From Lampris incognitus (Eukaryota > Chordata > Actinopteri > Lampriformes > Lampridae), in contig NC_079216.1 in NCBI RefSeq assembly GCF_029633865.1, positions 67,847,918-67,911,917 of the forward strand: DNA of 64,000 nucleotides, read 5' to 3'. How positions within the stretch are numbered: position 1 is the first letter of the stretch; each line of letters opens with the position of its first letter. Below, in pieces: positions 8,615 through 63,225 of this stretch. The position numbers were made by a program, and so were the translations under genes. The notes under the pieces are model-generated. The model was not told where the DNA came from, made no database searches, and saw only the letters and a program-made list of their open reading frames with translations.

Positions 8615-9860
8615 GAAATCACAGAAAGGTGAATCAGTTCATCTGGACACAACATTTAGTGGGAGAAACATTTCATCACTCATCCAAGTGACTTCGTCCA
8701 TCTCAACTGACTGTAGGTATCCCCACCCTTATAAACAGCACAGCTGCATAATTACCGAAACCAACGATAACTTTCGTATGCAAATAGGCATGACCATTAA
8801 CTAGAGTTTCAATGGCCCCAAAACACCCTATGCCAGAAATTGGTCCACCCCAAGGATCGGGTCCCCCGGCACAAACAGCAATATAGTGCATGCTGTTAAG
8901 TGCCAGGAGGATTGCCGTGACTTGTACATTGGGGAAACTAAACGGACGCTGACCAAGAGGATGGCACAGCACAGGAGAGCTAACACATCAGGCCAGGACT
9001 CCACAGTCTACACCATCTACAGGCCAGGACTCCACAGTCTACACCAACTACAGGCCAGGACTCAACAGTCTACACCATCTACAGGCCAGGACTCCACAGT
9101 CTACACCATCTACAGGCCAGGACTCCACAGTCTACACCATCTACAGGCCAGGACTCCACAGTCTACACCATCTACAGGCCAGGACTCCACAGTCTGCACC
9201 ATCTATAGGCCAGGACTCCACAGTCTACACCATCTACAGGCCAGGACTCCACAGTCTACACCATCTACAGGCCAGGACTCCACAGTCTACACCATCTACA
9301 GGCCAGGACTCCACAGTCTACACCATCTACAGGCCAGGGCTCCACAGTCTACACCATCTACAGGCCAGGACTCCACAGTCTGCACCATCTACAGGCCAGG
9401 ACTCCACAGTCTACACCATCTACAGGCCAGGACTCCACAGTCTACACCATCTACAGACCAGTGGCCGCTCTTTCAGGGATGAGGATGTGCACATCCTTGA
9501 TAGGGAGGAACGCTGGTTTGAATGGGGAGTCAGAGAGGCCATCTATGTGAAGAGGGAACGACCATCCCTGAACCGAGGGGGGCGCTAAGAGTACATCTGT
9601 CACCATCTTACAACGCTGTGATTGCAACTATTCCCCAATCCTCTGTGAACAGTACACATGGCCACTGAAACTGTAGTTTATGATCACAGCAATTTGCATA
9701 TGAAACCGATTGTTGGTTTTGGTCGTTATGCCACTGTATTGTTTATAAGGGTGGGGTACCTGCAGTCAGGTGAGACTGAAGAGGTCACTTAGATGATGAT
9801 GAAACGTTTCTCTAAATAGACATTGTGTCCAGATGAACTGACTCACCTTCTTGTGAGCTT
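8615..9860 (+). mobile_element. Penelope-like retroelement fragment (GIY-YIG end)
   Basis: 8886-8990 encodes VKCQEDCRDLYIGETKRTL and KRMAQHRRANTSGQDS, the GIY-YIG endonuclease opening of teleost Penelope-like elements. 9455-9590 encodes the end of the same domain (DEDVHILDREERWFEWGVREAIYVKRE in two stretches, then RPSLNRGG). The two halves are separated by a 30-bp tandem array. Flanking arms at about 8620-8850 and 9600-9850 are imperfect inverted copies of each other and share CCTTATAAACA, ATGCAAAT and GTGTCCAGATGAACTGA. Such terminal repeats are known for Penelope elements. The reverse transcriptase is absent, so this is a truncated, inactive copy. Confidence 0.8.
8991..9455 (+). repeat. 30-bp tandem array inside the GIY-YIG domain
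   Basis: About 15-16 copies of a 30-bp unit containing CCAGGACTCCACAGTCTACA, nearly identical apart from a few substitutions. The period is a multiple of three, so the reading frame stays open through the array as a repeated 10-residue peptide (SGQDSTVYTI-like). The unit matches the sequence at the array's own left edge, so it grew by local duplication within the element. Confidence 0.9.
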
Positions 9861-10989: not shown

Positions 10990-13900
10990 ATGAACGGACT
11001 CGCTGCGGCCGCGGGGTCGGCGTCCTGCCGCTTCGCCCACTATTTTGTCGTCTGCGGAGTGGACACGGAGACCGGCCTCGAACCGGACGATGTGGCAGGT
11101 AGGGGGGCCTCGCTTTGAGACGACCGGGGCTGAAACGAAGCCATAACGGTATCCTGCCGCCCAGTCGCCGTCCTGTCGCCGTCCTGTCGCCGCCCTGCCC
11201 GGGACGGTGACTGGGCGGTGTTATGGTTGTTGTCAAGTGGAGGATGTGTGGGAAGTGATGGCGGGGGGACACCCCAGCCCATGTTGTCTCATGTCTGTTA
11301 GATGAGGACAGATAGAATACCTGTTATCTCTGTGGGACACCCCAGCCCTATGTTGTCCCATGTCTGTTAGATGGGGACAGATAGAATACCTGTTATCTCT
11401 GTGGGACACCCCAGCCCATGTTGTCTCATGTCTGTTAGATGAGGACAGATAGAATACCTGTTATCTCTGTGTGGGACACCCCAGCCCATGTTGTCTTATG
11501 TCTGTTAGATGGGGACAGATAGAATACCTGTTATCTCTGTGGGACAACCCAGCCCTATGTTGTCTCATGTCTGTTAGATGGGGACAGATAGAATACCTGT
11601 TATCTCTGTGGGACAACCCAGCCCTATGTTGTCTCATGTCTGTTAGATGGGGACAGATAGAATACCTGTTATCTCTGTGTGGGACACCCCAGCCCTATCT
11701 TGTCTTATGTCTGTTAGATGGGGACAGATAGAATACCTGTTATCTCTGTGGGACACCCCAGCCCATGTTGTCTCATGTCTGTTAGATGAGGACAGATAGA
11801 ATACCTGTTATCTCTCTGTGGGACACCCCAGCCCTATGTTGTCTTATGTCTGTTAGATGGGGACAGATAGAATACCTGTTATCTCTGTGGGACACCCCAG
11901 CCCATGTTGTCTCATGTCTGTTAGATGAGGACAGATAGAATACCTGTTATCTCTGTGGGACACCCCAGCCCTATGTTGTCTCATGTCTGTTAGATGAGGA
12001 CAGATAGAATACCTGTTATCTCTGTGGGACACCCCAGCCCTATGTTGTCTCATGTCTGTTAGATGAGGACAGATAGAATACCTGTTATCTCTGTGGGACA
12101 CCCCAGCCCTATGTTGTCTCATGTCTGTTAGATGGGGACAGATAGAATACCTGTTATCTCTGTGGGACACCCCAGCCCTATGTTGTCTTATGTCTGTTAG
12201 ATGAGGACAGATAGAATACCTGTTATCTCTCTGTGGGACACCCCAACCCTATGTTGTCCCATGTCTGTTAGATGGGGACAGATAGAATACCTGTTATCTC
12301 TGTGGGACACCCCAGCCCTATGTTGTCTCATGTCTGTTAGATGAGGACAGATAGAATACTTGTTATCTCTGTGGGACACCCCAGCCCTATGTTGTCTTAT
12401 GTCTGTTAGATGAGGACAGATAGAATACCTGTTATCTCTGTGGGACATCCCAGCCCTATGTTGTCTCATGTCTGTTAGATGAGGACAGATAGAATACTTG
12501 TTATCTCTGTGGGACACCCCAGCCCTATGTTGTCTTATGTCTGTTAGATGGGGACAGATAGAATACCTGTTATCTCTGTGGGACACCCCAGCCCTATGTT
12601 GTCTCATGTCTGTTAGATGAGGACAGATAGAATACCTGTTATCTCTGTGGGACACCCCAGCCCTATGTTGTCTCATGTCTGTTAGATGAGGGCAGATAGA
12701 ATACCTGTTATCTCTGTGGGACACCCCAGCCCTATGTTGTCCCATGTCCGTTAGATGGGGACAGATAGAATACCTGTTATCTCTGTGGGACACCCCAGCC
12801 CTATCTTGTCTCATGTCTGTTAGATGGGGACAGATAGAATACCTGTTATCTCTGTGGGACACCCCAACCCTATGTTGTCCCATGTCTGTTAGATGGGGAC
12901 AGATAGAATACCTGTTATCTCTGTGGGACACCCCAGCCCTATGTTGTCTCATGTCTGTTAGGTGAGGACAGATAGAATACCTGTTATCTCTGTGTGGGAC
13001 ACCCCAGCCCTATGTTGTCTCATGTCTGTTAGATGGGGACAGATAGAATACCTGTTATCTCTGTGGGACACCCCAGCCCTATGTTGTCTCATGTCTGTTA
13101 GATGAGGACAGATAGAATACCTGTTATCTCTGTGTGGGACACCCCAGCCCTATGTTGTCTCATGTCTGTTAGATGGGGACAGATAGAATACCTGTTATCT
13201 CTGTGTGGGACACCCCAGCCCTATGTTGTCTCATGTCTGTTAGATGAGGACAGATAGAATACCTGTTATCTCTGTGGGACACCCCAGCCCTATGTTGTCT
13301 TATGTCTGTTAGATGGGGACAGATAGAATACCTGTTATCTCTGTGGGACACCCCAGCCCTATGTTGTCTTATGTCTGTTAGATGAGGACAGATAGAATAC
13401 CTGTTATCTCTGTGGGACACCCCAGCCCTATGTTGTCTCATGTCTGTTAGATGAGGACAGATAGAATACCTGTTATCTCTGTGGGACACCCCAGCCCTAT
13501 GTTGTCTTATGTCTGTTAGATGGGGACAGATAGAATACCTGTTATCTCTCTGTGGGACACCCCAGCCCTATGTTGTCTTGTGTCTGTTAGATGGGGACAG
13601 ATAGAATACCTGTTATCTCTGTGTGGGACACCCCAGCCCTATGTTGTATCATGTCTGTTACATGGGGACAGATAGAATACCTGTTATCTCTGTGTGGGAC
13701 ACCCAGCCCTATGTTGTCTTATGTCTGTTAGATGGGGACAGATAGAATACCTGTTATCTCTGTGGGACACCCCAGCCCTATGTTGTCTTATGTCTGTTAG
13801 ATGGGGACAGATAGAATACCTGTTATCTCTGTGGACACCCCAGCCCTATGTTGTCTTATGTCTGTTAGATGGGGACAGATAGAATACCTGTTATCTCTGT

Positions 13901-14371
13901 GTGGGACACCCCAGCCCTATCTTGTCTTATGTCTGTTAGATGGGGACAGATAGAATACCTGTTATCTCTGTGGGACACCCCAGCCCATGTTGTCTCATGT
14001 CTGTTAGATGAGGACAGATAGAATACCTGTTATCTCTCTGTGGGACACCCCNNNNNNNNNNNNNNNNNNNNNNNNNNNNNNNNNNNNNNNNNNNNNNNNN
14101 NNNNNNNNNNNNNNNNNNNNNNNNNNNNNNNNNNNNNNNNNNNNNNNNNNNNNNNNNNNNNNNNNNNNNNNNNNNNNNNNNNNNNNNNNNNNNNNNNNNN
14201 NNNNNNNNNNNNNNNNNNNNNNNNNNNNNNNNNNNNNNNNNNNNNNNNNNNTTCAATTCAGTTCAATTCATGCTTTATTGGCATGACATACGTTTGTGTA
14301 CATATTGCCAAAGCATGTAAAACAACAACAACACAATACAACAATGATTATAATAACAACAACAACAATGT

Positions 14372-15024: not shown

Positions 15025-18000
15025 CAGTGTGTAATTGGTGAATGACTGCAGGGAGACAATCTGCTCTTGTTGGCCTCTCAATAGTCACCACTGTGTTTTC
15101 TGCAGCCTAATCAAATTTCACATGACGTTCCCTGTTGGAATGCCGGATTGCCGCGGCCCCAGCCCCAGCCCCAGCTCCAGCCCCAGCCCCAGCCCCAGCC
15201 CCAGCCCCAGCCCCAGCCCCAGCTCCAGCCCAGCCCCAGCCCCAGCCCCAGCCCCAGCCCCAGCCCCAGCCCCAGCCCCAACCCAGCTCCAGCTCCAGCT
15301 CCAGCTCCAGCCCCAGCCCCAGCCCCAGCCCCAGCTCCAGCCCCAGCTCCAGCTCCAGCCCCAGCCCCAGCTCCAGCCCCAGCCCCAGCTCCAGCCCCAG
15401 CTCCAGCTCCAGCCCCAGCTCCAGCCCCAACCCCAGCCCCAGCCCCAGCTCCAGCCCCAGCCCCAGCTCCAGCCCCAGCTCCAGCCCCAACCCCAGCCCC
15501 AGCCCCAGCCCCAGCCCCAACCCCAGCTCCAGCTCCAGCTCCAGCTCCAGCCCCAGCCCCAGCCCCAGCCCCAGCTCCAGCCCCAGCCCCAGCTCCAGCC
15601 CCAGCCCCAGCTCCAGCCCCAGCCCCAGCTCCAGCCCCAGCTCCAGCCCCAACCCCAGCCCCAGCCCCAGCTCCAGCCCCAACCCCAGCCCCAGCTCCAG
15701 CCCCAGCTCCAGCCCCAACCCCAGCCCCAGCTCCAGCCCCAGCTCCAGCTCCAGCCCCAGCTCCAGCTCCAGCCCCAGCTCCAGCCCCAACCCCAGCTCC
15801 AGCTTCAACCCCAGCTCCAGCCCAGCCCCATCTCCAGCCCCAGCCCCAGCTCCAGCCCCAGCCCCAGCCCCAGCCCCAACCCCAGCTCCAGCTCCAGCTC
15901 CAGCTCCAGCTCCAGCCCCAGCCCCAGCTCCAGCCCCAACCCCAGCCCCAGCTCCAGCTCCAGCTCCAGCCCCAGCCCCAGCTCCAGCCCCAGCCCCAGC
16001 TCCAGCCCCAGCTCCAGCCCCAGCCCCAGCTCCAGCCCCAACCCCAGCCCCAGCCCCAGCTCCAGCTCCAGCCCCAGCTCCAGCCCCAACCCCAGCCCCA
16101 GCTCCAGCTCCAGCCCCAGCTCCAGCTCCAGCCCCAGCCCCAGCCCCAGCCCAGCTCCAGCCCCAACCCCAGCTCCAGCTCAGCTCAGCCCCAGCTCCAG
16201 CTCCAGCCCCAGCCCCAGCCCCAGCTCCAGCTCCAGCCCCAACCCCAGCCCCAGCTCCAGCCCCAGCTCCAGCCCCAGCCCCAGCCCCAGCTCCGGGCAG
16301 ATGACTGTTACAGGGGATGACATCAGTGGTCCGGTGGGGACACAGTAGCCATGTTAGAAGTACTTAATGAATGCAGACTGATTGGAGTATAAAAAGGGAT
16401 AAACAGTTGAAGCAAACTATGCATGGCATCAGGGCTCGCAGTTTTCTCTGCATATTTTTTATTTCGGTTTCCATTTGAGCAGTTGAAATTCAAAGTCCTC
16501 CGTCCCTTTCAAGGTGCTCAACTTTGCAATATGCACATTAAACCTTGAAGCGTATTTATGATCCCGCACCGTGTTACCGCTGTCAGACGATGCAAGTTCT
16601 GTAAAGTAAATTTGGAGCTCGCCTTCAGTGAATGATCAAACTGCTCATTTGGACACATGGGTCGTTCAACTATTTATGCCAAAAATGAAAAAAAAACCCT
16701 CTTTAAAGAGGACCTCTTCACATTTGCTGTTTATTTCTACTGTTTTCCAGCAGTCGCTGCTCCTCATCTACTCATCCGGGGATTCTGATGGACAGGCTGC
16801 TGGGAGTAATGGAGCTGGTGAATATGACAGATGTCCATCTTTATGTCTGCTCGGTCATCCCCGATTAAGCCTTTCGTTTTTGTTTTTTTTCTAAATGGGG
16901 GACCATTTGGGAATATTAATCACTGTGATAAATCTCTCAAGTATGAAACGACTGTCAAACCTTTTTGGTCATTGTACGCTCACGGCGTACTGTCTGTGTT
17001 GGCGTATTCAAGCATGACAATGACGACTCCCCACAACTGCTGATGTGAAAGAGTATTTAAACAGTATGGTTTCAGGGCCACCACCTGTGTGTGTGTGTGT
17101 GTGTGTGTTGTGTTGTGTTGTGTATGTTTGTGTAAGCATTTGGTGATTCCTGACGGTACATTATTTACAGCTAAACTAGATCCACCTTTCAAGCTTCCAT
17201 TTGTTACACTAAAGCAACACCCTTTTGATGTCTTCAGTTAGGGGAGAGAGACAGAGAATTTGATGTCTTCAGTTAGGAGAGAGAGACAGAGAATTTGATG
17301 TCTTCAGTTAGGAGAGAGAGACAGAGAATTTGATGTCTTCAGTTAGGAGAGAGAGAGACAGAGAATTTGATGTCTTCAGTTAGGAGAGAGAGACAGAGAA
17401 TTTGATGTCTTCAGTTAGGGGAGAGAGAGACAGAGAATTTGATGTCTTCAGTTAGGGGAGAGAGAGACAGAGAATTTGATGTCTTCAGTTAGGGGAGAGA
17501 GACAGAGAATTTGATGTCTTCAGTTAGGAGAGAGAGAGACAGAGAATTTGATGTCTTCAGTTAGGAGAGAGACAGAGAATTTTATGTCTTCAGTTAGGAG
17601 AGAGAGACAGAGAATTTGATGTCTTCAGTTAGGAGAGAGAGACAGAGAATTTGATGTCTTCAGTTAGGAGAGAGAGAGACAGAGAATTTGATGTCTTCAG
17701 TTAGGAGAGAGAGACAGAGAATTTGATGTCTTCAGTTAGGAGAGAGAGACAGAGAATTTGATGTCTTCATTTAGGAGAGAGAGACAAAGAATTTGATGTC
17801 TTCAGTTAGGAGAGAGAGACAGAGAATTTGATGTCTTCAGTTAGGGGAGAGAGAGACAGAGAATTTGATGTCTTCAGTTAGGAGAGAGAGACAGAGAATT
17901 TGATGTCTTCAGTTAGGAGAGAGAGAGACAGAGAATTTGATGTCTTCAGTTAGGAGAGAGAGACAGAGAATTTGATGTCTTCAGTTAGGAGAGAGAGACA

Positions 18001-21000
18001 GAGAATTTGATGTCTTCAGTTAGGAGAGAGAGACAGAGAATTTGATGTCTTCAGTTAGGAGAGAGAGACAGAGAATTTGATGTCTTCAGTTAGGAGAGAG
18101 AGACAGAGAATTTGATGTCTTCAGTTAGGGGAGAGAGAGACAGACAATTTGATGTCTTCAGTTAGGAGAGAGAGACAGAGAATTTGATGTCTTCAGTTAG
18201 GAGAGAGAGACAGAGAATTTGATGTCTTCAGTTAGGAGAGAGAGACAGAGAATTTGATGTCTTCAGTTAGGAGAGAGAGACAGAGAATTTGATGTCTTCA
18301 GTTAGGAGAGAGAGACAGAGAATTTGACGTCTTCAGTTAGGGGAGAGAGAGAGACAGAGAATTTGATGTCTTCAGTTAGGGGAGAGAGAGACAGAGAATT
18401 TGATGTCTTCGGTTAGGAGAGAGAGACAGAGAATTTGATGTCTTCAGTTAGGAGAGAGACAGAGAATTTGATGTCTTCAGTTAGGAGAGAGAGACAGAGA
18501 ATTTGATGTCTTCAGTTAGGAGAGAGAGACAGAGAATTTGATGTCTTCAGTTAGGGGAGGGAGAGACAGAGAATTTGATGCCTTCAGTTAGGGGAGAGAG
18601 AGACAGAGAATTTGATGTCTTCAGTTAGGAGAGAGAGACAGAGAATTTGATGTCTTCAGTTAGGAGAGAGAGAGACGGAGAATTTGATGTCTTCAGTTAG
18701 GGGAGAGAGAGACAGAGAATTTGATGTCTTCAGTTAGGGGAGAGAGAGACAGACATTGATGTCTTCAGTTAGGAGAGAGAGACAGAGAATTTGATGTCTT
18801 CAGTTAGGAGAGAGAGACAGAGAATTTGATGTCTTCAGTTAGGAGAGAGAGACAGAAAATTCGATGTCTTCAGTTAGGAGAGAGAGACAGAGAATTTGAT
18901 GTCTTCAGTTTGGAGAGAGAGAGAAAGAGAATTTGATGTCTTCAGTTAGGGGAGAGAGAGACAGAGAATTTGATGTCTTCAGTTAGGAGAGAGAGACAGA
19001 GAATTTGATGTCTTCAGTTAGGAGAGAGACAGAGAATTTGATGTCTTCAGTTAGGAGAGAGAGACAGAGAATTTGATGTCTTCAGTTAGGAGAGAGAGAC
19101 AGAGAATTTGATGTCTTCAGTTAGGAGAGAGAGACAGAGAATATGATGTCTTCAGTTAGGGGAGAGAGACAGAGAATTTGATGTCTTCAGTTAGGGGAGA
19201 GAGACAGAGAATTTGATGTCTCCAGTTAGGAGAGAGAGACAGAGAATTTGATGTCTTCAGTTAGGAGAGAGGGACAGAGAATTTGATGTCTTCAGTTAGG
19301 AGAGAGAGACAGAATTTGATGTCTTCAGTTAGGGGAGAGAGAGACAGAGAATTTGATGTCTTCAGTTAGGAGAGAGAGACAGAGAATTTGATGTCTTCAG
19401 TTAGGAGAGAGAGAGACAGAGAATTTGATGTCTTCAGTTAGGAGAGAGAGACAGAGAATTTGATGTCTTCAGTTAGGAGAGAGAGAGACAGAGAATTTGA
19501 TGTCTTCAGTTAGGAGAGAGAGAGACAGAGAATTTGATGTCTTCAGTTAGGAGAGAGAGACAGAGAATTTGATGTCTTCAGTTAGGAGAGAGAGAGACAG
19601 AGAATTTGATGTCTTCAGTTAGGAGAGAGAGACAGAGAATTTGATGTCTTCAGTTAGGGGAGAGAGAGACAGAGAATTTGATGTCTTCAGTTAGGAGAGA
19701 GAGACAGAGAATTTGATGTCTTCAGTTAGGAGAGAGAGACAGAGAATTTGATGTCTTCAGTTAGGAGAGAGAGAGACAGAGAATTTCATGTCTTCAGTTA
19801 GGAGAGAGAGACAGAGAATTTGATGTCTTCAGTTAGGAGAGAGAGAGACAGAGAATTTGATGTCTTCAGTTAGGAGAGAGAGACAGAGAATTTGATGTCT
19901 TCAGTTAGGGGAGAGAGAGACAGAGAATTTGATGTCTTCAGTTAGGGGAGAGAGAGACAGAGAATTTGATGTCTTCAGTTAGGGGAGAGAGACAGAGAAT
20001 TTGATGTCTTCAGTTAGGAGAGAGAGAGACAGAGAATTTGATGTCTTCAGTTAGGAGAGAGACAGAGAATTTTATGTCTTCAGTTAGGAGAGAGAGACAG
20101 AGAATGTGATGTCTTCAGTTAGGAGAGAGAGACAGAGAATTTGATGTCTTCAGTTAGGAGAGAGAGAGACAGAGAATTTGATGTCTTCAGTTAGGAGAGA
20201 GAGACAGAGAATTTGATGTCTTCAGTTAGGAGAGAGAGACAGAGAATTTGATGTCTTCATTTAGGAGAGAGAGACAAAGAATTTGATGTCTTCAGTTAGG
20301 AGAGAGAGACAGAGAATTTGATGTCTTCAGTTAGGGGAGAGAGAGACAGAGAATTTGATGTCTTCAGTTAGGAGAGAGAGACAGAGAATTTGATGTCTTC
20401 AGTTAGGAGAGAGAGAGACAGAGAATTTGATGTCTTCAGTTAGGAGAGAGAGACAGAGAATTTGATGTCTTCAGTTAGGGGAGAGAGAGACAGAGAATTT
20501 GATGTCTTCAGTTAGGAGAGAGAGACAGAGAATTTGATGTCTTCAGTTAGGAGAGAGAGACAGAGAATTTGATGTCTTCAGTTAGGAGAGAGAGACAGAG
20601 AATTTGATGTCTTCAGTTAGGGGAGAGAGAGACAGACAATTTGATGTCTTCAGTTAGGAGAGAGAGACAGAGAATTTGATGTCTTCAGTTAGGAGAGAGA
20701 GACAGAGAATTTGATGTCTTCAGTTAGGAGAGAGAGACAGAGAATTTGATGTCTTCAGTTAGGAGAGAGAGACAGAGAATTTGATGTCTTCAGTTAGGAG
20801 AGAGAGACAGAGAATTTGACGTCTTCAGTTAGGGGAGAGAGAGAGACAGAGAATTTGATGTCTTCAGTTAGGGGAGAGAGAGACAGAGAATTTGATGTCT
20901 TCGGTTAGGAGAGAGAGACAGAGAATTTGATGTCTTCAGTTAGGAGAGAGACAGAGAATTTGATGTCTTCAGTTAGGAGAGAGAGACAGAGAATTTGATG

Positions 21001-24000
21001 TCTTCAGTTAGGAGAGAGAGACAGAGAATTTGATGTCTTCAGTTAGGGGAGGGAGAGACAGAGAATTTGATGCCTTCAGTTAGGGGAGAGAGAGACAGAG
21101 AATTTGATGTCTTCAGTTAGGAGAGAGAGACAGAGAATTTGATGTCTTCAGTTAGGAGAGAGAGAGACGGAGAATTTGATGTCTTCAGTTAGGGGAGAGA
21201 GAGACAGAGAATTTGATGTCTTCAGTTAGGGGAGAGAGAGACAGACATTGATGTCTTCAGTTAGGAGAGAGAGACAGAGAATTTGATGTCTTCAGTTAGG
21301 AGAGAGAGACAGAGAATTTGATGTCTTCAGTTAGGAGAGAGAGACAGAAAATTCGATGTCTTCAGTTAGGAGAGAGAGACAGAGAATTTGATGTCTTCAG
21401 TTTGGAGAGAGAGAGAAAGAGAATTTGATGTCTTCAGTTAGGGGAGAGAGAGACAGAGAATTTGATGTCTTCAGTTAGGAGAGAGAGACAGAGAATTTGA
21501 TGTCTTCAGTTAGGAGAGAGACAGAGAATTTGATGTCTTCAGTTAGGAGAGAGAGACAGAGAATTTGATGTCTTCAGTTAGGAGAGAGAGACAGAGAATT
21601 TGATGTCTTCAGTTAGGAGAGAGAGACAGAGAATATGATGTCTTCAGTTAGGGGAGAGAGACAGAGAATTTGATGTCTTCAGTTAGGGGAGAGAGACAGA
21701 GAATTTGATGTCTCCAGTTAGGAGGGAGAGACAGAGAATTTGATGTCTTCAGTTAGGAGAGAGGGACAGAGAATTTGATGTCTTCAGTTAGGAGAGAGAG
21801 ACAGAATTTGATGTCTTCAGTTAGGGGAGAGAGAGACAGAGAATTTGATGTCTTCAGTTAGGAGAGAGAGACAGAGAATTTGATGTCTTCAGTTAGGAGA
21901 GAGAGAGACAGAGAATTTGATGTCTTCAGTTAGGAGAGAGAGACAGAGAATTTGATGTCTTCAGTTAGGAGAGAGAGAGACAGAGAATTTGATGTCTTCA
22001 GTTAGGAGAGAGAGAGACAGAGAATTTGATGTCTTCAGTTAGGAGAGAGAGACAGAGAATTTGATGTCTTCAGTTAGGAGAGAGAGAGACAGAGAATTTG
22101 ATGTCTTCAGTTAGGAGAGAGAGACAGAGAATTTGATGTCTTCAGTTAGGGGAGAGAGAGACAGAGAATTTGATGTCTTCAGTTAGGAGAGAGAGACAGA
22201 GAATTTGATGTCTTCAGTTAGGGGAGAGAGAGACAGAGAATTTGATGTCTTCAGTTAGGAGAGAGAGAGACAGAGAATTTGATGTCTTCAGTTAGGAGAG
22301 AGAGACAGAGAATTTGATGTCTTCAGTTAGGAGAGAGAGAGACAGAGAATTTCATGTCTTCAGTTAGGAGAGAGAGACAGAGAATTTGATGTCTTCAGTT
22401 AGGGGAGAGAGAGACAGAGAATTTGATGTCTTCAGTTAGGAGAGAGAGACAGAGAATTTGATGTCTCCAGTTAGGAGAGAGAGACAGAGAATTTGATGTC
22501 TTCAGTTAGGAGAGAGAAAGACAGAGAATTTGATGTCTTCAGTTAGGAGAGAGAGAGACAGAGAATTTCATGTCTTCAGTTAGGAGAGAGAGACAGAGAA
22601 TTTGATGTCTCCAGTTAGGAGAGAGAGACAGAGAATTTGATGTCTTCAGTTAGGGGAGGGAGAGACAGAGAATGGGAGAAAACCAGAGACAGTATATTTC
22701 AATGCAGTTTAAGCTTTTAATTTGGGTTCTCTGATGTAATTTGCTATTACGTAGCCGCTGACGAGCCGCCTCCTGAAGGCTGTCCTCAAGGCCACAGTAC
22801 CAGTGGAAATGGCTGCCATGGCAACTACATTTCTCTCCCTCTCTTCAGAGGTTGATGTTTTTCATCCTTCTCTCTGTTGCTTTCCCCCCACACCTTTCTG
22901 TCATTTTCTGTTACTTGGCCTTTTTAAAAGTTGCCGGGGCTTAAATCCCCATCTTGCTGTTGTTGCACCAGGTTTGTTTTCCTGTTATTCTGCCCAAACA
23001 CAACTGCTTATTCTTATCAAAGAACATGGCGCCCTCCTCTTCTCAGACTAATACACTAGCTTCTCTCTCCCACCCGTCCGTCTGGCTCAAGTCAGTGTCA
23101 CGTAGGTACCCCTCTCGTTCTGCCTGCGGTGCTGCTCCTGCTGTGGTTCTGGTGCGTCATTGCTGAGGCAGGTGGCCGTCGCTGAATAAAACAATGTGCG
23201 TCAAAGCCGACAACTGAGAGAGGGCTGCTTTACTTTTTTAATATTGAGGGTTTTTTTTTACAATGCAACAATATTAATTATAGCCAGAGAACAGAGGGAA
23301 TCTATGCCAGTTAGTGAAATGAGGAATCCAGTCAGAATACGAAAGCCTCAACTCAAAAGTGGGAAGCATTTTAAAGAGTAACTAAATCCTACACCAATGT
23401 AGTGAGTTTGCTGTTATCTACAGGTTAAAACCCATGTAAAGGTTAAAAACATGCCAGGGTGGGGTATCCGGGTGGCATGGCGGTCTATTCCGTTTCCTAC
23501 CAACACTGGAATCACCGGTTCGAAACCCCGTGTTACCTCCGGCTTGGTCGGGCATCCCTACAGACACAGTTGGCCGTGTCTGCGGGTGGGAAGCCCAGAT
23601 GTGGGTATGTGTCCTGGTTGCTGCACCAGCACCTCCTCTGGTCAGTCGGGCACCTGTTTGGGGGGGGGGGGACTGGGGGGGGGGGGTAATTTGATCCTCC
23701 CACGCACTACATCCCCCTGGCAAAACTCCTCACTGTCAGGTGAAAAAAAGCGGCTGGCGACTCCACATGTATCGGGGGAGACGTGACAGTCTGCAGCCCT
23801 CCCCGGATCGGCAGAGGGGGTGGAACAGTGATGGGGACAGCTCGGAAGAGTGGGGTAATTGGCCGGATACAATTGGGGAGAAAAAGGGGAAGAAAAATAA
23901 AAACATGCCAGGGTGGTTTTGGTACTCTGTGGTGTTAGCATAGCAGGACAAACACAGCTGCAGCTTACAACATTAATAATGGCTCTGTTGGATGTAGATG

Positions 24001-35465: not shown

Positions 35466-38400
35466 ACACAAAATACTGTGAACTGAAAATGGGCTTTTTT
35501 ACTTTGTTAGCTTATTTCGCCAGACATATTTATGCCAAAAGAAATCACAAAAAAAAATGTGTTTTACTTATTTTACATCAAAATTTAATCACCTTAACTT
35601 CTTCTAAATTTGTGGTTGTCATTGAGCAGAACTGAGTGACAAGCAGGCGGGCGAGCAACATTCCAACCAATGTTATCATAAAATGTTTTTCACGATCCAG
35701 TGAAATCCTGAAGGATCCCAACACATCCCTCCCTACTTTTTGTCCTGCTCTAATATCCTCTTTTACGTGCAAATATGTCACATTATGGAAACAAACCACA
35801 TTCTGAATGCCGTTTCACGTTGTCTTTAAGCCTCTAGCAGACTAACAGTATGTCTCGTTTATTTCCCTTTGCTACAATCCTTAGAAGCACACATTTTGGC
35901 GAAAGAACATGCGTCAATCCAAGCTGCTGGATCCTTCAGCCTTGGCTATCAGTCAGACCCACCGGGAGTTTGTGGATGGATTACTGAGTGAGTGCCGCCT
36001 AAAGGTGAGAATGTTCTCTCTGGTGTAGGGACTTGCCAGGCCTTACAAAACCTAAATATCTGGTTCATTTATTGTTCATGAATGACACTGGACATATTTT
36101 GGCTTTGTAGACCAAGCAAATGTTGATGGAGAGGATGGGGAAAGAGAGTGTGGAATTGTGTCAGGGTGAAGCCAACATTACTGGCCTGCAGGAGACCACA
36201 CTCATCCATGGTCTCTGTGACCTACTGGAGAGGACCTGGGGCCATGGTCTGCAGCTAAAACAGGTCAGACACACACACACACATGCACACGCACACACAC
36301 CAGACACACTATCACACATGAACGCACATTCATATGCTCAACTTGGTATGCCTCGCCAGCCAAAATGACCTAAAAAAACATCTGGGACTGTGTATGTGAC
36401 TGTTTTGAACAAACTGGTATCACACACACGTCCACACAAAAAGAGAGTGTCTGGTTGAACAAGTTGAATGTTGATGACTGTGTCAATTTCAACACGGTGT
36501 GACTGTTTGTCCTGAGCAGGGGAAGTCAACTCTGTGGTCCCACCTGCTCCACTACCATGCCGCGCAGGAGAAGATGGCATCCCCAGCTGAGTCTTCAGGT
36601 TGGAGCAGACCCTTCCTATAACCAGTCTTGCATAAATCATTGAGTTAATGGCTTAATGATCATATGTTAAACTCTTTCTATTCAGTGTCTCCAGGCATGG
36701 ACCAAAGGATGCTTGATGAGGGGATTCCACTCCTGAAAGGATCCTTGCTACAGGACATGAGGTAAAGAGACTGTACAGTCAATTCTATGCATTTGTGGAA
36801 AATGTTTAGGGTGTTTTGGATGGTGAAGGAAGTGTATGGTGGTTTATTTTATTGAAAACACAGAAAATAAACTTGATTGGGGGAGAAATAAGATTCAAGC
36901 ACTAACTATGATGCTTTCACTAGAGTTGTCCCCTCTTTCTGTTGTCTGACATGTTTTAAATTGAAATCTTTGGATGAAAGAATACCTGAGCTTTTAAACT
37001 ACTTAATTTGTCTGCACATACTATACATTGATCAGCCAAAACATTAAAACCAACGGCAGGTAAGTGAATAACATTATGTTGTTACAGTGGCACCTGTCAA
37101 GGAGTGGGATATATTAGGCAGCAAGTGGACAGTCAGTTCTTAAAGCTGATGTGTTGGAAGCAGGAAAAATGAGCAAGTGTAAGGTTCTGAGCGATTCTGA
37201 CAAGGGCCAAATTGTGATGGCTAGACAACTGAGTCAGAACATCTCCAAAACGGCAGGTCATTTGGGGTGTTCCTGGTATGCAGTTGTCGGTAACTACCAA
37301 AAGTAGTCCAAGACAGGACAACTGGTGAACAGGTGACAGGGTCATGGGCACCCAAGGCTCATTGATGCGCGTGGGGAGTGAAGGCTGGCCATCTGGTCTG
37401 AGCCCAGAGAAGAGCTACTGTAGCTCAAATTGCTGAAAAAGTTAATGCTGGCTGTGATAGGCAGGTGTCAGGATACACAGTGCATCACAGCTTGCTGTGT
37501 ATGGGGCTGCATTGCCGCAGACCGGTCAGAATGCCCATGATGACCCCTGTCCACCGCCGAAAGTGCCTACAGTGGACACGTTGGACCGTGAAGCAGTGGA
37601 AGAAGGTGGCCTGGTCTGATGAATCACATTTTCTTTTACATCATGTGGATGGCCGGGTGCGTGTTCATTGTTTACCAGGGGACGAGATGGCACCAGCATG
37701 CACAATGAGAAGAAGGCAAGCTGACGGAGGCAGTGTGATGCTCTGGGCAATGTTCTGCTGGGAAACCTTGGGTCCTGGCATTCATGTGTATGGTACTTTA
37801 ACATGTACCATCTACCTAAACATTGTTGCAGATCAGGTACACCCCTTCATGGCAATGGTGTTCCCTGATGGCAGTGGCCTCTTTCAGCAGGATAATGCCC
37901 CCTACCACACTGTAAAAACTGTTCAGGAATGGTTTGAGGAACATGACAAGGAGTTCAAGGTGTTGTCTTGGCTTCCAAATATCCCAGATCTCAATACGAT
38001 CGAGCATCTGTGGGATGTGCTGGAAAAACAAGTCTGATCCATGGAGGTCCCACCTCACAACCTATAGGACTTGAAGGATCTGCTACTAATGTCTTGGTGC
38101 CAGATACCAGAGGACACCTTCAGAGGTCTTGTGGAGTCCATGCCTCAATGGGTCAGATCTGTTTTAGCGGCACGAGGGGGACCTACACAACATTAGGCAG
38201 GTGGTTTTAATGTTTTGGCTGACTAGTGTATGTGCTACACAAATATGACGTTATGCTTTCTAAGGTGGTTAATTTCAGCAGTTATGAAAATGTATTTTGG
38301 TTGAAAGGTTTGGTTTTCTAGATACTTAAGCAGACCAACCAATGAAATCCAATCTGTGACAACGGTGAGAAAATTTTTATTTGAGGAGTTTGTCATTGCC

Positions 38401-54958: not shown

Positions 54959-55205
54959 GTTTACAAACAAGAAAGTGTCGGGTTTTTTCCCTTTAGGCTG
55001 TCCGTGTTTTCAAATCGTCTCGCAAGTCCGCTGCAGGCGTATATCATAAGTCCCCGATTTGCACAGTTTGGAGCTGACGTTAACAAGAGCGGAGTAAACG
55101 GGGGGTAGGTACAAAACAGTCCGGTAGCCTGACTGTCTGGCATCAGGTAGTTCCATGGTGACGGCTCATCCGCACCGGTAGCGAGCGACCCGTCTTACGA
55201 TCCCC

Positions 55206-57195
55206 GTTACAGCACGCTGCCATGCTTTTCTTACAGCACGCTGCCATGCTTGGATCACAGCACGCTGCCATGCTTGTATCACAGCACGCTGCTATGCTTG
55301 TATTACAGCACGCTGCTATGCTTGTATCACAGCACGCTGCTATGCTTGTATCACAGCACGCTGCTATGCTTGTATCACAGCACGCTGCTATGCTTGTATC
55401 ACAGCACGCTGCCATGCTTTTATTACAACACGCTGCCATGCTTTTATTACAACACGCTGCCATGCTTGTATCACAGCACGCTGCTATGCTTGTATTACAG
55501 CACGCTGCTATGCTTGTATCACAGCACGCTGCTATGCTTGTATCACAGCACGCTGCTATGCTTGTATCACAGCACGCTGCCATGCTTTTATTACAACACG
55601 CTGCCATGCTTGTATCACAGCACGCTGCTATGCTTGTATCACAGCACGCTGCTATGCTTGTATCACAGCACGCTGCCATGCTTGTATCACAGCACGCTGC
55701 CATGCTTGTATCACAGCACGCTGCCATGCTTGTATCACAGCACGCTGCTATGCTTGTATCACAGCACGCTGCCATGCTTTTATTACAACACGCTGCCATG
55801 CTTGTATCACAGCACGCTGCTATGCTTGTATCACAGCACGCTGCTATGCTTGTATCACAGCACGCTGCCATGCTTGTATCACAGCACGCTGCCATGCTTG
55901 TATCACAGCACGCTGCTATGCTTGTATCACAGCACGCTGCTATGCTTGTATCACAGCACGCTGCCATGCTTGTACCACAGCACGCTGCCATGCTTGTACC
56001 ACAGCACGCTGCTATGCTTGTATCACAGCACGCTGCTATGCTTGTACCACAGCACGCTGCTATGCTTTTATTACAGCACGCTGCCATGCTTGTATCACAG
56101 CACGCTGCTATGCTTGTATCACAGCACGCTGCTATGCTTTTATTACAGCACGCTGCTATGCTTGTATCACAGCACGCTGCTATGCTTGTATCACAGCACG
56201 CTGCCATGCTTGTATCACAGCACGCTGCCATGCTTTTATTACAACACGCTGCCATGCTTGTATCACAGCACGCTGCTATGCTTGTATCACAGCACGCTGC
56301 TATGCTTGTATCACAGCACGCTGCTATGCTTGTATCACAGCACGCTGCCATGCTTTTATTACAACACGCTGCCATGCTTGTATCACAGCACGCTGCTATG
56401 CTTGTATCACAGCACGCTGCTATGCTTGTATCACAGCACGCTGCCATGCTTGTATCACAGCACGCTGCCATGCTTGTATCACAGCACGCTGCCATGCTTG
56501 TATCACAGCACGCTGCTATGCTTGTATCACAGCACGCTGCCATGCTTTTATTACAACACGCTGCCATGCTTGTATCACAGCACGCTGCTATGCTTGTATC
56601 ACAGCACGCTGCTATGCTTGTATCACAGCACGCTGCCATGCTTGTATCACAGCACGCTGCCATGCTTGTATCACAGCACGCTGCTATGCTTGTATCACAG
56701 CACGCTGCTATGCTTGTATCACAGCACGCTGCCATGCTTGTACCACAGCACGCTGCCATGCTTGTACCACAGCACGCTGCTATGCTTGTATCACAGCACG
56801 CTGCTATGCTTGTACCACAGCACGCTGCTATGCTTTTATTACAGCACGCTGCCATGCTTGTATCACAGCACGCTGCTATGCTTGTATCACAGCACGCTGC
56901 TATGCTTTTATTACAGCACGCTGCTATGCTTGTATCACAGCACGCTGCTATGCTTGTATCACAGCACGCTGCCATGCTTGTATCACAGCACGCTGCTATG
57001 CTTGTATCACAGCACGCTGCTATGCTTGTATCACAGCACGCTGCTATGCTTGGATCACAGCACGCTGCTATGCTTGGATCACAGCACGCTGCCATGCTTG
57101 TATCACAGCACGCTGCTATGCTTGGATCACAGCACGCTGCCATGCTTGTATTACAGCACGCTGCTATGCTTGTATCACAGCACGCTGTTATGCTT
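55206..57195 (+). repeat. 24-bp satellite array with 768-bp higher-order repeat
   Basis: About 82 copies of a 24-bp unit containing CAGCACGCTGC(C/T)ATGCTTGT. Because 24 is a multiple of three, long spurious frames run through it: 8-residue repeats AACCDTSI on the minus strand (666 codons) and QHAAMLVS on the + strand (678 codons). Variant units (TACCACAG for TATCACAG, and TTTTATTAC) recur in the same order 768 bp apart (for example 55973 and 56741), exactly 32 units. Confidence 0.95.
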
Positions 57196-57862
57196 TTACC
57201 ACCAATCTTAGTTTTTGTGGATTTACAAAGTAAGTTTTATCATTGCATGCAAAGCTAAGGTGCTCATTGGTGCAACTAACCTACCGACATGGACATAGCT
57301 ATCGAATAATTGGTTCTCAGTTGGGTTTTCTCAATAAATTCCTAGTGATTAGTTCAATAACATATTCGTATGTTAACTATTTATAGATTAGTGGCCTGGT
57401 CATGGAAAACACCTGGAAAATGATAAGATTGGTCAGATGTCCTGGAAATGTTATTGATCTCATGGAAAATTGTAAAGGTAGCGGCCCCTAACGGGAGAAA
57501 GTAGTAGCAGCAGTAGTAGAAGAGATATGGCATATTTAACCATATTTTTAGCCGCTGGGATTGAATATCTGTGCTTGAAGTTTTGTTTTTTTGGAGGGGG
57601 GGGGGCGGGATATGTCCAGTGACTAGCGAAAAGTTCCACAGTCCATTCAGAGACTATTTAGGTTTAAAGTGATAGTTAATATTGAATATACCCTTCCATG
57701 AGCAACAGCTGCCATGTTCATCCAAGAAAAGGCCACAGAAAACATTGTTAAAAAGTCCTGGAAATTGATTTTCTAAAATGAGAGGGAAATATGCCAAACG
57801 CTAGATCTGTGATTTCGATTCACTGCCTTGGCCATACTCTTACTAGAAGGTTGCCCTTGCAG
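57196..57862. other. Sequence between satellite and kxd1, no feature recognised
   Basis: AT-rich with a G-run at about 57594-57606. It ends in the pyrimidine-rich acceptor of the kxd1 start exon (TTGCCCTTGCAG). Confidence 0.5.
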
Positions 57863-59599: not shown

Positions 59600-60925
59600 T
59601 GACTGAGGAAGAGAAATAAAACGCTCGTGGCTGCACAAACAAGCCATGATAACAAGCTGAACTTTGATTGTAATACCAATTTGCTGTGCAAAAAGAGCCA
59701 GCAGTGGCTTTTTTGTCTGAGGAAGCTGGCTAAGTTGGGTGTCGACAGGTCCCTGATGACTTTGTTCTACAGATCTTTTATTGAGTCGGTTATTACTTTG
59801 TCTTTTATCGGTTGGTATGCCTCTCTCAACCTTCAACAGAAAAATGCACCAACGAAGGTGATCGAGGTGTGCAGTAGCATCACAGGTGTCTGTCTGATTT
59901 ATACAACAGAGATGTTAAGGAAAGCAGAGCCCATCCTGTCCGACAGCACCACCCACCACCACCACCCCCCCTGCACCTAGAGCTTCACACCTTGCCTTCT
60001 GGTTCCCGCTTCAAATACCCAGTAGTCAAAGCCAACACATACTACAGACACTCCTCCTTCCCCTCAGCCACGTCACTGCTACCCTGCAGCATCGGAGGCA
60101 GTACCAGCTCCACCTGCAGTGCCAGCTCCACCAGCGGTACCAGCTCCACCAGCGGTGCCAGCTCCACCAGCGGTACCAGCTCCACCAGCAGTACCAGCTC
60201 CACCAGCGGTACCAGCTCCACCAGCAGTGCCAGCTCCACCAGCGGTACCAGCTCCACCAGCAGTGCCAGCGGTACCAGCTCCACCAGCGGTACCAGCTCC
60301 ACCAGCAGTGCCAGCAGCACCAGCTCCACCAGCAGTGCCAGCTCCACCAGCAGTGCCAGCGGTACCAGCTCCACCAGCGGTACCAGCTCCACCAGCAGTG
60401 CCAGCAGCACCAGCTCCACCAGCAGTGCCAGCTCCACCAGCGGTGCCAGCTCCACCAGCAGTGCCAGCGGTACCAGCTCCACCAGCGGTACCAGCTCCAC
60501 CAGCTCCACCAGCAGTGCCAGCAGCACCAGCTCCACCAGCGGTGCCAGCTCCACCAGCGGTGCCAGCTCCACCAGCAGTGCCAGCTCCACCTGCAGTGCC
60601 AGCTCCACCAGCAGTGCCAGCTCCACCTGCAGTGCCAGCTCCACCTGCAGTACCAGCTCCACCAGCAGTGCCAGCTCCACCTGCAGTGCCAGCTCCACCA
60701 GCAGTACCAGCTCCACCAGCAGTGCCAGCTCCACCAGCAGTACCAGCTCCACCAGCAGTGCCAGCTCCACCTGGATACACACTGTGTACTGTTGCGCTGC
60801 TTTTGGTGCTCCTCACGCCATGTTGTATTATTTGTATGTATCTGCCTTGTGTGCTCTGTGGGGGTTTGAGTGTTTAAATGTTGCCGCTGCTACGCAACAA
60901 AACCTGCCTGACTTGACTTGACAAA
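59600..60925 (+). mobile_element. LINE 3' part with internal 18-bp array
   Basis: 59660-59980 encodes the C-terminal end of a teleost LINE protein (KSQQWLFCLRKL, then MTLFYRSFIESVITLSFIGW, then MLRKAEPILSD). Its usual next block continues after 59985 (LPSGSRFKYPVVKANTYY). The 3' untranslated end at about 60776-60925 closes with a CTTGACTTGAC tail. The 18-bp array separates the coding end from the tail. The copy is 5' truncated. Confidence 0.7.
60100..60772 (+). repeat. 18-bp minisatellite inside the LINE
   Basis: About 37 copies of an 18-bp unit (CCAGCTCCACCAGC plus GGTA, AGTG, AGTA or GGTG), open in several frames because 18 is a multiple of three (Ser/Thr, Pro/Ala/Val and Gly/Ala/Thr peptides). 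It starts within what should be the last codons of the LINE protein. Confidence 0.95.
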
Positions 60926-61020: not shown

Positions 61021-61324
61021 CGCTCGCTCGCTCGCTCGCTCAAGTTGTCAACTGACTTAAAGGCATGACGGGGCGGCCGAGGCCGTGTGCTGACTAGTAG
61101 GTGGTGTTGTCTGTGCGCTTCTTCCAGCGGCCTCCACCCTCTCGCCGCCGCTCGGCCGGGCCTCCACCCTCTCGCCGCCGCTCGGCCAGGCAGGCTGCGT
61201 TGGGCGCCCCGCGCATGGCGGCGCCTGTCGACGGCGTGCGGAGTAAGTCGTGAATCCGAGTTCCTGGCTGGTTTCCGGAGTCACCGTGTGAGCCTCCGTC
61301 TGCAGCCGCACCGTCACGTCCACG
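61021..61324 (+). promoter_or_regulatory. ergic2: ergic2 promoter-proximal region and 5' UTR
   Basis: CpG-rich. It contains a (GCTC)n tract at about 61022-61041 and a 29-bp tandem duplication (GGCCTCCACCCTCTCGCCGC twice) at about 61130-61190. An upstream ORF of 12 codons starts at 61215 (MAAPVDGVRSKS) and ends at 61253. A consensus donor GTAAGT at 61243 and an acceptor TCTGCAG ending at 61305 would define a 63-nt intron in the leader, which would remove the end of that uORF. Whether it is spliced cannot be told from sequence. Confidence 0.45.
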
Positions 61325-63009
61325 ATGAGGAGACTCAACAAGAAGAAGGCTTTAAGTCTGGTCCGAGACCTGGACGCGTTCCCGAAGGTTCCCGAGAGTT
61401 ATGTAGAGACCACGGCAAGCGGCGGGACAGGTAGATATGACGACGACGACGATGATGATGATAATGTGTTTAATCGGGGGGGGGGGAGATGATAATCTCC
61501 ATGCGATAAGCGGCGGGACAGGTAGATATGATGATGATGATGATGATGTGTTTAATCGGGGGGGGGGGGAAGATGATAATCTCCATGCGATAAGCGGCGG
61601 GACAGGTAGATATGATGATGATGATGATAATGTGTTTAATCGGGGGGGGGGAGATGATAATCTCCATGCGATAAGCGGCGGGACAGGTAGATATGATGAT
61701 GATGATGATGATGATGATGATGTGTTTAATGGGGGGGGGAGATGATAATCTCCATGCGATAAGCGGCGGGACGGGTAGATATGATGATGATGATGATGAT
61801 AATGTGTTTAATGGGGGGGAAGATGATAATCTCCATGCGATAAGCGGGGGGACAGGTAGATATGATGATGATGATGATGATGTGTTTAATCGGGGGGGGG
61901 AGATGATAATCTCCATGCGATAAGCGGGGGGACAGGTAGATATGATGATGATGATGATGATAATGTGTTTAATGGGGGGGGAAGATGATAATCTCCATGC
62001 GATAAGCGGCGGGACAGGTAGATATGATGATGATGATGATGTGTTTAATCGGGGGGGGGGATGATAATCTCCATGCGATAAGCGGGGGGACAGGTAGATA
62101 TGATGATGATGATGATGATAATGTGTTTAATGGGGGGGGAAGATGACAATCTCCATGCGATAAGCGGGGGGACAGGTAGATATGATGATGATGATGATGA
62201 TAATGTGTTTAATGGGGGGGGGATGATAATCTCCATGCGATAAGCGGGGGGACAGGTAGATATGATGATGATGATGATGATAATGTGTTTAATGGGGGGG
62301 GAAGATGACAATCTCCATGCGATAAGCGGGGGGACAGGTAGATATGATGATGATGATGATGATGATAATGTGTTTAATGGGGGGGGGGATGATAATCTCC
62401 ATGCGATAAGCGGGGGGACAGGTAGATATGATGATGATGATGATGATGTGTTTAATCGGGGGGGGGGATGACAATCTCCATGCGATAAGCGGGGGGACAG
62501 GTAGATATGATGATGATGATGATGATGATAATGTGTTTAATGGGGGGGAGATGATAATCTCCATGCGATAAGCGGGGGGACAGGTAGATATGATGATGAT
62601 GATGATGATGATGATGATGTGTTTAATGGGGGGGGAGATGATAATCTCCATGCGATAAGCGGCGGGACAGGTAGATATGATGATGATGATGATGATGATG
62701 ATGATGTGTTTAATGGGGGGGGAAGATGATAATCCATGCGATAAGCGGGGGGACAGGTAGATATGATGATGATGATGATGATGTGTTTAATCGGGGGGGG
62801 GAGATGATAATCTCCATGCGATAAACGGGGGGACAGGTAGATATGATGATGATGATGATGATGATGATAATGTGTTTAATGGGGGGGGAAGATGATAATC
62901 TCCATGCGATAAGCGGCGGGACAGGTAGATATGATGATGATGATGGTAATGTGTTTAATGGGGGGGGGGGATGATAATCTCCATGCGATAAGCGGGGGGA
63001 CAGGTAGAT

Positions 63010-63044
<35 letters not shown>

Positions 63045-63225
63045 AATGTGTTTAATGGGGGGGGGGATGATAATCTCCATGCGATAAGTCATTTGGAAAC
63101 CCTGCACGTCTCGTAGTGTCTTTGGTAGCCTTTGCGTTCATGGCCGGCCTCGCCTTCCTGGAGTTCTTCGTGTACAGAGACACATGGATGAAGTACGAGT
63201 ACGAGGTGGACACGGACTTCTCCAG
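61325..63225 (+). CDS. ergic2: ergic2, ER-Golgi intermediate compartment protein 2, first two coding exons (partial)
   Basis: Coding exons 61325-61430 and 63117-63225 join in phase and match the ERGIC2 N-terminus: MRRLNKKKALSLVRDLDAFP, KVPESYVETTASGGT, then VSLVAFAFMAGLAFLEFFVY and RDTWMKYEYEVDTDFS. ERGIC2 (yeast Erv41 family) cycles between ER and Golgi with ERGIC3 as a cargo/retrieval receptor. The hydrophobic stretch at residues about 37-56 is the first membrane span, leaving a short cytosolic N-terminus; the large lumenal domain would follow outside the window. The remaining exons are not in the window. Oddly, the exon 1 donor lies in the first unit of an 83-bp array that fills intron 1. 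Confidence 0.93.
61418..63088 (+). repeat. 83-bp minisatellite carrying about 20 copies of the ergic2 splice donor
   Basis: About 20 units of roughly 77-93 bp. Each has AAGCGG(C/G)GGGACAGGTAGAT, a (GAT)n tract of variable length, TGTGTTTAAT(C)GGGG with a G-run, and GATAATCTCCATGCGAT. The first unit's AAGCGGCGGGACAG is the end of ergic2 coding exon 1 and its GTAGAT is the donor. Donor copies begin near 61427, 61520, 61606, 61684, 61774, 61853, 61933, 62015, 62092, 62173, 62253, 62336, 62418, 62498, 62582, 62668, 62753, 62835, 62923 and 63002. The array stops 28 nt before the exon 2 acceptor. Confidence 0.95.

Follow-up and report, generated by a model that had tools for sequence, protein, structure and literature searches.

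How can an exon be joined at the right place when the intron behind it holds twenty near-identical splice donors? The question is raised by ergic2 of Lampris incognitus. We analysed a stretch of 64,000 nucleotides (the window; contig NC_079216.1, here C9, positions 67,847,918 to 67,911,917 of the forward strand), in which the plus strand at 61417-63088 is a minisatellite whose unit contains the end of the first coding exon of ergic2 together with the donor that follows it. A sequence-only reading of the window had proposed about 20 tandem copies of this exon/donor boundary. Unit parsing bore this out: there are 20 units, and 19 of them carry the exact sequence CAG/GTAGAT (a slash within a site marks the splice boundary; positions are those of the window unless another sequence is named).

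Structure of the array

Parsing resolved the array into 20 units of 76-96 bp, which total 1669 bp and end at 63085, followed by a terminal AAG at 63086-63088. Tandem Repeats Finder (TRF) reported an 82-bp period at 61451-63030, with 19.2 copies and a score of 2198. Of the coordinates first proposed for the array, 61418-63088, the end stands and the start shifts to 61417.

61417..63088, plus strand: minisatellite spanning the exon/intron boundary (TRF and unit parsing); 20 units (76-96 bp) and AAG
61417..61507, plus strand: unit 1, with the true exon end and the true donor (GT at 61431), a GAC run and the stop common to all later-donor transcripts
62990..63085, plus strand: unit 20, holding the final decoy (GT at 63004), from which the acceptor would be reached by a 113-nt intron
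First bases of GTAGAT, units 1-10: 61431, 61522, 61606, 61687, 61775, 61856, 61936, 62018, 62094, 62176
First bases of GTAGAT, units 11-20: 62256, 62338, 62422, 62501, 62584, 62671, 62757, 62837, 62925, 63004

Each unit opens with 14 nt that correspond to the close of the first coding exon, AA(G/A)CGG(C/G)GGGAC(A/G)G in all 20, and continues with the donor GTAGAT; unit 5 differs in reading CGG/GTAGAT. Downstream of the donor lie a run of 5-11 GAT triplets (with GAC triplets among them in unit 1), GTGTTTAAT, a run of 7-12 G that begins 34-54 nt into the intron counted from that unit's donor, and finally a tail that has ATGCGAT at its end. Donors are spaced 76-91 nt apart. The step of about 83 bp that had been proposed is thus not constant. 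We searched both strands of the window for CAGGTAGAT and found 20 matches, 19 in the array and one at 26943 on the minus strand; 100 shuffles gave a mean of 0.63 and a maximum of 4, so that the array is above chance. Compared in pairs, units are on average 97.8% identical if only ungapped columns are used, and 89.5% identical if gaps are counted.

The repeated boundary is the end of the first coding exon

The array lies in the following gene context:

61240..61248, plus strand: probable end of a 5' untranslated region (5' UTR) exon, GGA/GTAAGT (GT at 61243; donor-like score 6.15 by a rough matrix)
61306..61430, plus strand: ergic2 exon that bears the ATG (at 61325), the first with coding sequence and probably exon 2 overall (acceptor CTGCAG/CC, predicted; ends in ACAG)
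61431..63116, plus strand: first intron within the coding sequence, 1686 bp long and in phase 1; the array accounts for 61431-63088, or 1658 of the 1686 bp, and 28 bp are non-array
63117..63225, plus strand: next coding exon (VSLVAFAFMAGLAFLEFF...DFS; acceptor CGTAG/TG; donor CAG/GTACGT)

When 61325-61430 and 63117-63225 are joined in phase 1, they encode MRRLNKKKALSLVRDLDAFPKVPESYVETTASGGT/VSLVAFAFMAGLAFLEFFVYRDTWMKYEYEVDTDFS. This two-exon join matches Pfam ERGIC_N with E=3.8e-14 (the query had one extra residue); a PDB search with the same two exons returned no match. Splicing from the donor of copy 1 to the acceptor at 63117 reads SGGT/VSLVAF and restores ERGIC2. With 17 kb beyond the window added, ergic2 on C9 has 13 coding exons, GT-AG introns and an uninterrupted frame of 385 amino acids and a stop, its exon borders being placed by means of GT-AG sites and homology to human ERGIC2. 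A 63-nt intron is predicted from the GT at 61243 to CTGCAG/CC, with the next exon starting at 61306. Because this likely 5' UTR intron lies before it, the exon that bears the ATG is probably exon 2; the label of exon 1 given to it earlier is right for the first coding exon and probably wrong for the first exon overall.

A search of the assembly for the gene family identified two further loci, on C3 (L012) and C2 (L011); this number is a lower bound, since the C9 gene itself was not returned, and C3 scored below the Pfam cut-off. The C3 locus is an ergic2 paralogue in which ...TSASGGT is followed by ACAG/GTGAGT, an 89-bp intron with one donor, and CACAG/TGTCACTG, in the same phase as on C9. In a tblastn comparison of the C9 protein with 30 kb at C3, residues 1-349 of 385 were matched as exon-sized pieces, and no match was found in those 30 kb for the last 36 residues. 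A possible acceptor AG also lies shortly 5' of the ATG in the paralogue. The C2 gene, which we take to be ergic3-like, has an acceptor, GCAG/TGACC, at the corresponding position and phase. The identities of both genes come from reading their sequences, and that of C3 also from the exon-by-exon match to the C9 protein.

Because the paralogue and the ergic3-like gene share the site, the boundary is old, and the intron predates the repeats rather than being made by them. Intron gain by tandem duplication is ruled out by the same comparison: the paralogue has this intron in single copy, and the ergic3-like gene has the corresponding acceptor. The sequence-only reading had the exon ending in SGGT at ACAG/GTAGAT, and this is now backed by ERGIC_N, the 13-exon frame, the paralogue boundary and the ergic3-like acceptor, in phase 1; the identical paralogue boundary and that acceptor rule out an exon ending elsewhere. 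Likewise, the unit does straddle the exon/intron boundary as claimed: each copy has 14 exonic nucleotides and a donor, and the paralogue confirms the boundary. The single-copy state that the same reading had called for in related species was found in the paralogue of the same genome, and not in another species. The 113 nt of intron left from the last donor are near the 89 of the paralogue.

Later donors lead to a common stop

We spliced each of the 20 donors in silico to the acceptor at 63117. The products of all 19 later donors ended at one shared stop, which lies in unit 1 and follows residue 55. The frame made no difference: the four donors that lie a multiple of three from the first, and would otherwise be in frame, gave this stop too. 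Since every later-donor product meets the stop, any leakage to these donors is predicted to be unproductive. Use of a later donor had been expected usually to shift the frame or reach a stop. The disruption is confirmed and "usually" is too weak, since a stop is always reached. In-frame read-through giving protein variants is ruled out on the same grounds.

Choice of donor

Splicing experiments usually compare a few duplicated donors. In ergic2, a natural allele places 20 near-identical donors in a single intron, of which only the first has a usable frame, and the array-free paralogue in the same genome provides a control. Exon definition predicts use of copy 1 and intron definition use of copy 20; hence, this intron sets two rules against each other. 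Both rules are given in PMC9225289. For donors of near-equal strength, the upstream one is preferred with long introns (exon definition), whereas with short introns (intron definition) the donor nearest the acceptor, i.e. the downstream one, is preferred; the upstream preference is heightened in the class where the donor is in a long intron that follows a short one. The same paper describes one experiment with competing duplicated donors. In ergic2, an exon of about 125 nt has a predicted 63-nt intron before it and a 1686-nt intron after it. By the long-intron rule, this exon should use copy 1.

We consider it likely that the array is a mirage-type passenger minisatellite (mirages, described below, are minisatellite-like duplications of intron/exon boundaries), that copy 1 is used, mainly by exon definition, and that decoy products are rare or degraded. 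We infer the duplication history, the reason for the choice of copy 1, the help from the G run and the decay of leaked products as follows. The ancestor would have had an ordinary short intron of about 100 bp, like that of the paralogue, in which a segment of about 80 bp was duplicated in tandem; the segment would have begun 14 nt upstream of the donor and stopped about 30 nt short of the acceptor. This segment would have been flanked by AAG at both ends, fitting an initial duplication at a 3-bp match; AAG is indeed present at both ends of the array. Unequal exchange or slippage would then have expanded the duplication to 20 copies, of which the first remained the real exon end and the other 19 became intronic passengers. 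Copy 1 would be picked because the exon of about 125 nt is defined together with its predicted upstream acceptor, copy 1 being the closest donor across the exon, and would be favoured also through being transcribed first. The downstream G run would help a donor that has no G at the usual +5 position, and nonsense-mediated decay would clear any leakage to later copies, leaving copy number with little visible effect.

The variation among units fits such a history. Of the 20 units, 1 and 20 are on average the most distant from the rest (0.142 and 0.177). Two lags were tested: at a lag of two, units resemble each other more than they do when their order is shuffled (p=0.0036, 5000 shuffles), and for adjacent units the effect is not significant (p=0.34). 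The order of the units and the divergence of the end units look like ordinary minisatellite turnover. The six donor columns are invariant; this is no evidence of selection on the decoys, because the nine columns of GTGTTTAAT are equally invariant, and variation is present in 3 of the 14 columns that derive from the exon. We also count toward the passenger reading the other large tandem arrays near this one.

Several points weigh against the passenger reading and the use of copy 1. Among 13 listed ergic2 donors, the array donor is the sole one without G at +5, which makes leakage plausible, and it is third lowest of the 13 by the rough donor matrix (6.50, vs 12.43 for the C3 paralogue by the same matrix); the G runs after the donor may compensate for this weakness. 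When the equal-strength filter of PMC9225289 is left out, the downstream donor is preferred in all four intron classes. Under the short-intron rule, copy 20, 113 nt from the acceptor, would be favoured, i.e. the wrong end of the array. The use of copy 1 is deduced from frame and homology, and the exon-definition argument leans on the predicted 5' UTR intron. In addition, a match as short as the AAG at the breakpoints (3 bp) may have arisen by chance, and unit distances are driven largely by the lengths of the GAT and G runs.

Alternative explanations

Nineteen near-identical donors, each with A at +5, compete behind the first, and every one leads to the same stop. They might be used enough to matter, in which case stop-containing mRNA would be made and array length would set the amount of productive ergic2 mRNA, as a dial on unproductive splicing. 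Human genes offer parallels: the MSTN mutation IVS1+5 g->a redirects splicing to a cryptic site that lies 108 bp downstream (PMC3045353), and IFI6 employs two downstream repeat units as donors (PMC4526556). Amphioxus mirages with AG/GT, however, are reported with regular splicing intact (PMC3087553), and the decoy donors of ergic2 show no sign of selection beyond recent homogenisation; we regard appreciable use of the decoys as unlikely. It is also rather improbable that a length-variable decoy array tunes ergic2 output, whether because extra copies recruit U1 and raise the share of stop-containing forms, or because a longer intron shifts splicing from intron-defined to exon-defined and so protects copy 1. 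If tuning did occur, array length would be a quantitative control of splicing, readable in natural alleles.

The remaining alternatives are far less probable. ACAG/GTAGAT occurs in 19 of the 20 units (ACGG in unit 5), so an AG/GT ratchet that removed the intron stepwise from copy to copy would be neutral with respect to the product, giving the same mRNA. We see scarcely any chance of this, since no pyrimidine tract precedes the repeated ACAG: the pyrimidine fraction is 0.33 (15 nt, first 4 of 20 units) vs 0.60 at the real acceptor. For lack of this tract in those four units, recursive splicing was rejected as the main route. Misassembly is frequent in tandem arrays and one haplotype only is represented, so the copy number might be inflated or the array itself an error. 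However, 18 of the 20 units are distinct (unit 6 equals unit 17, and unit 9 equals unit 11) and their likeness has some order; the sequence is without N across 20 kb around ergic2; the 222-bp 5' flank of the array matches only itself in the 1.48-Gb assembly; and all 18 exact matches to a 22-base array core in the assembly fall within the array. An assembly error is thus very improbable. Lastly, the existence of an array-free paralogue would allow ergic2 on C9 to be a decaying duplicate, mis-spliced through the array, with the C3 gene keeping the function. The 13 coding exons, GT-AG borders and uninterrupted 385-residue frame of the C9 gene make this hardly credible.

Other donor-like arrays and neighbouring features

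We searched the assembly for three occurrences of CAGGTRAGT at gaps of 30-60 nt and obtained 938 matches (505 forward and 433 reverse), whereas the pattern in reversed letter order gave 363 (183 and 180); these are counts of matches that overlap within arrays, not of arrays. Because of this excess, donor-like arrays look common in the L. incognitus genome. None of seven arrays inspected, at one locus each (7 of 30 loci, among the matches listed), clearly starts at a coding exon as judged by open frames. One of the seven, at C2:2747330-2748414, is a GGTAAG(T/G) array with spacings mostly in multiples of 16; it starts a few tens of bases after an acceptor-like GAACAG, and is a possible second exon-edge array by its sequence. 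On C9, a minisatellite of more than 4.2 kb (L010:5796-10000 and beyond, L010 running from 67924713) begins about 2.1 kb after the ergic2 stop. Its unit is about 25-27 bp (AGTAAGTTGGGGTACTGTCTCTCTGAA in one form), with a donor-like GTAAGT core in many of the units read and an acceptor-like stretch, CTCTCTGACAG, in several.

TRF detected six further large arrays in the window, which stops 1.85 Mb short of the end of the 69.76-Mb contig. These arrays and two transposon-related fragments are as follows:

8989-9461: array, 31-bp unit
11266-14051: array, 69-bp unit
15156-16291: array, 6-bp unit
17224-22673: array, 35-bp unit
55209-57202: array, 24-bp unit
60098-60771: array, 18-bp unit
2-955, minus strand: reverse transcriptase fragment (Pfam RVT_1)
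37402-38034, plus strand: Tc-type transposase fragment (Pfam DDE_3; HTH_Tnp_Tc3_2 below cut-off)

Across the 24-bp array (55146-57255), whose unit is a multiple of three, three plus-strand frames and one minus-strand frame stay open for about 680-700 codons. Near ergic2 the window also contains DENN and FAM60A exons; in human, DENND5B and FAM60A lie near ERGIC2.

Comparison with known systems

In the open-licence literature searched, no report of an exon-straddling donor array in ergic2 or in a teleost was present among the matches listed, and PMC3045353 (minisatellite, splice donor, teleost) describes no donor array in the part consulted. The sequence-only reading had gone further, knowing of no described case like this one. 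That view has to be given up, since amphioxus mirages and the donor minisatellite of human IFI6 are precedents; the ergic2 array is a striking new example of a described kind, not the first of its type.

The IFI6 (6-16) unit is 12 nt long. This minisatellite supplies multiple splice donors (Turri et al. 1995, via PMC4526556), and in this respect resembles the ergic2 array. The two differ in that IFI6 uses two downstream units, giving three mRNAs, whereas the later donors of ergic2 reach a stop in 19 of 19 cases. Downstream donors that yield usable protein variants, as in IFI6, are therefore not a feature of ergic2. Variable internal tandem repeats of minisatellite size have also been described at exon-intron boundaries of human genes within segmental duplications, where they may alter gene structure (PMC2812944). 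Those repeats may give rise to new introns, and often there is also an alternative transcript in which the repeat is retained, whereas the ergic2 intron is old. The Rogers model, in which introns are gained through tandem duplication of AGGT-containing sequence (PMC4974935), likewise involves tandem duplication across or near AG/GT, but no new intron arose in ergic2, where the site is already intronic in the paralogue and the ergic3-like gene has a corresponding acceptor.

The closest likeness is to the mirages of amphioxus. In its globin and Adh3 genes, intron/exon boundaries have been duplicated in the manner of a minisatellite, and many of the units contain AG/GT (PMC3087553); TnC and PGBD5 were added in PMC3902484. 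Adh3 data and globin RT-PCR (reverse transcription polymerase chain reaction) suggest that regular splicing is undisturbed, and BflGb6 has 6 units in one haplotype and 3 in another (PMC3087553). Undisturbed splicing and length variation are reports on amphioxus mirages, not on the ergic2 array. The ergic2 array has 20 units, a repeated donor and long G runs, and comes from another animal, whereas, of the globins, BflGb6 repeats the acceptor side and BflGb9 duplicates the 3' boundary of an exon. In three features the systems agree. The ergic2 unit spans the exon/intron boundary; its 76-96 bp fall within the mirage range of about 10-160 bp, with AG/GT in 19 of 20 copies compared with many copies in mirages; and the boundary units stand outside homogenisation, units 1 and 20 of ergic2 being the most distant, largely through the lengths of the GAT and G runs. 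By these features, judged from sequence, the ergic2 array belongs to the mirage kind, and this boundary-spanning kind, reported from amphioxus, is thereby carried to ergic2 of another animal.
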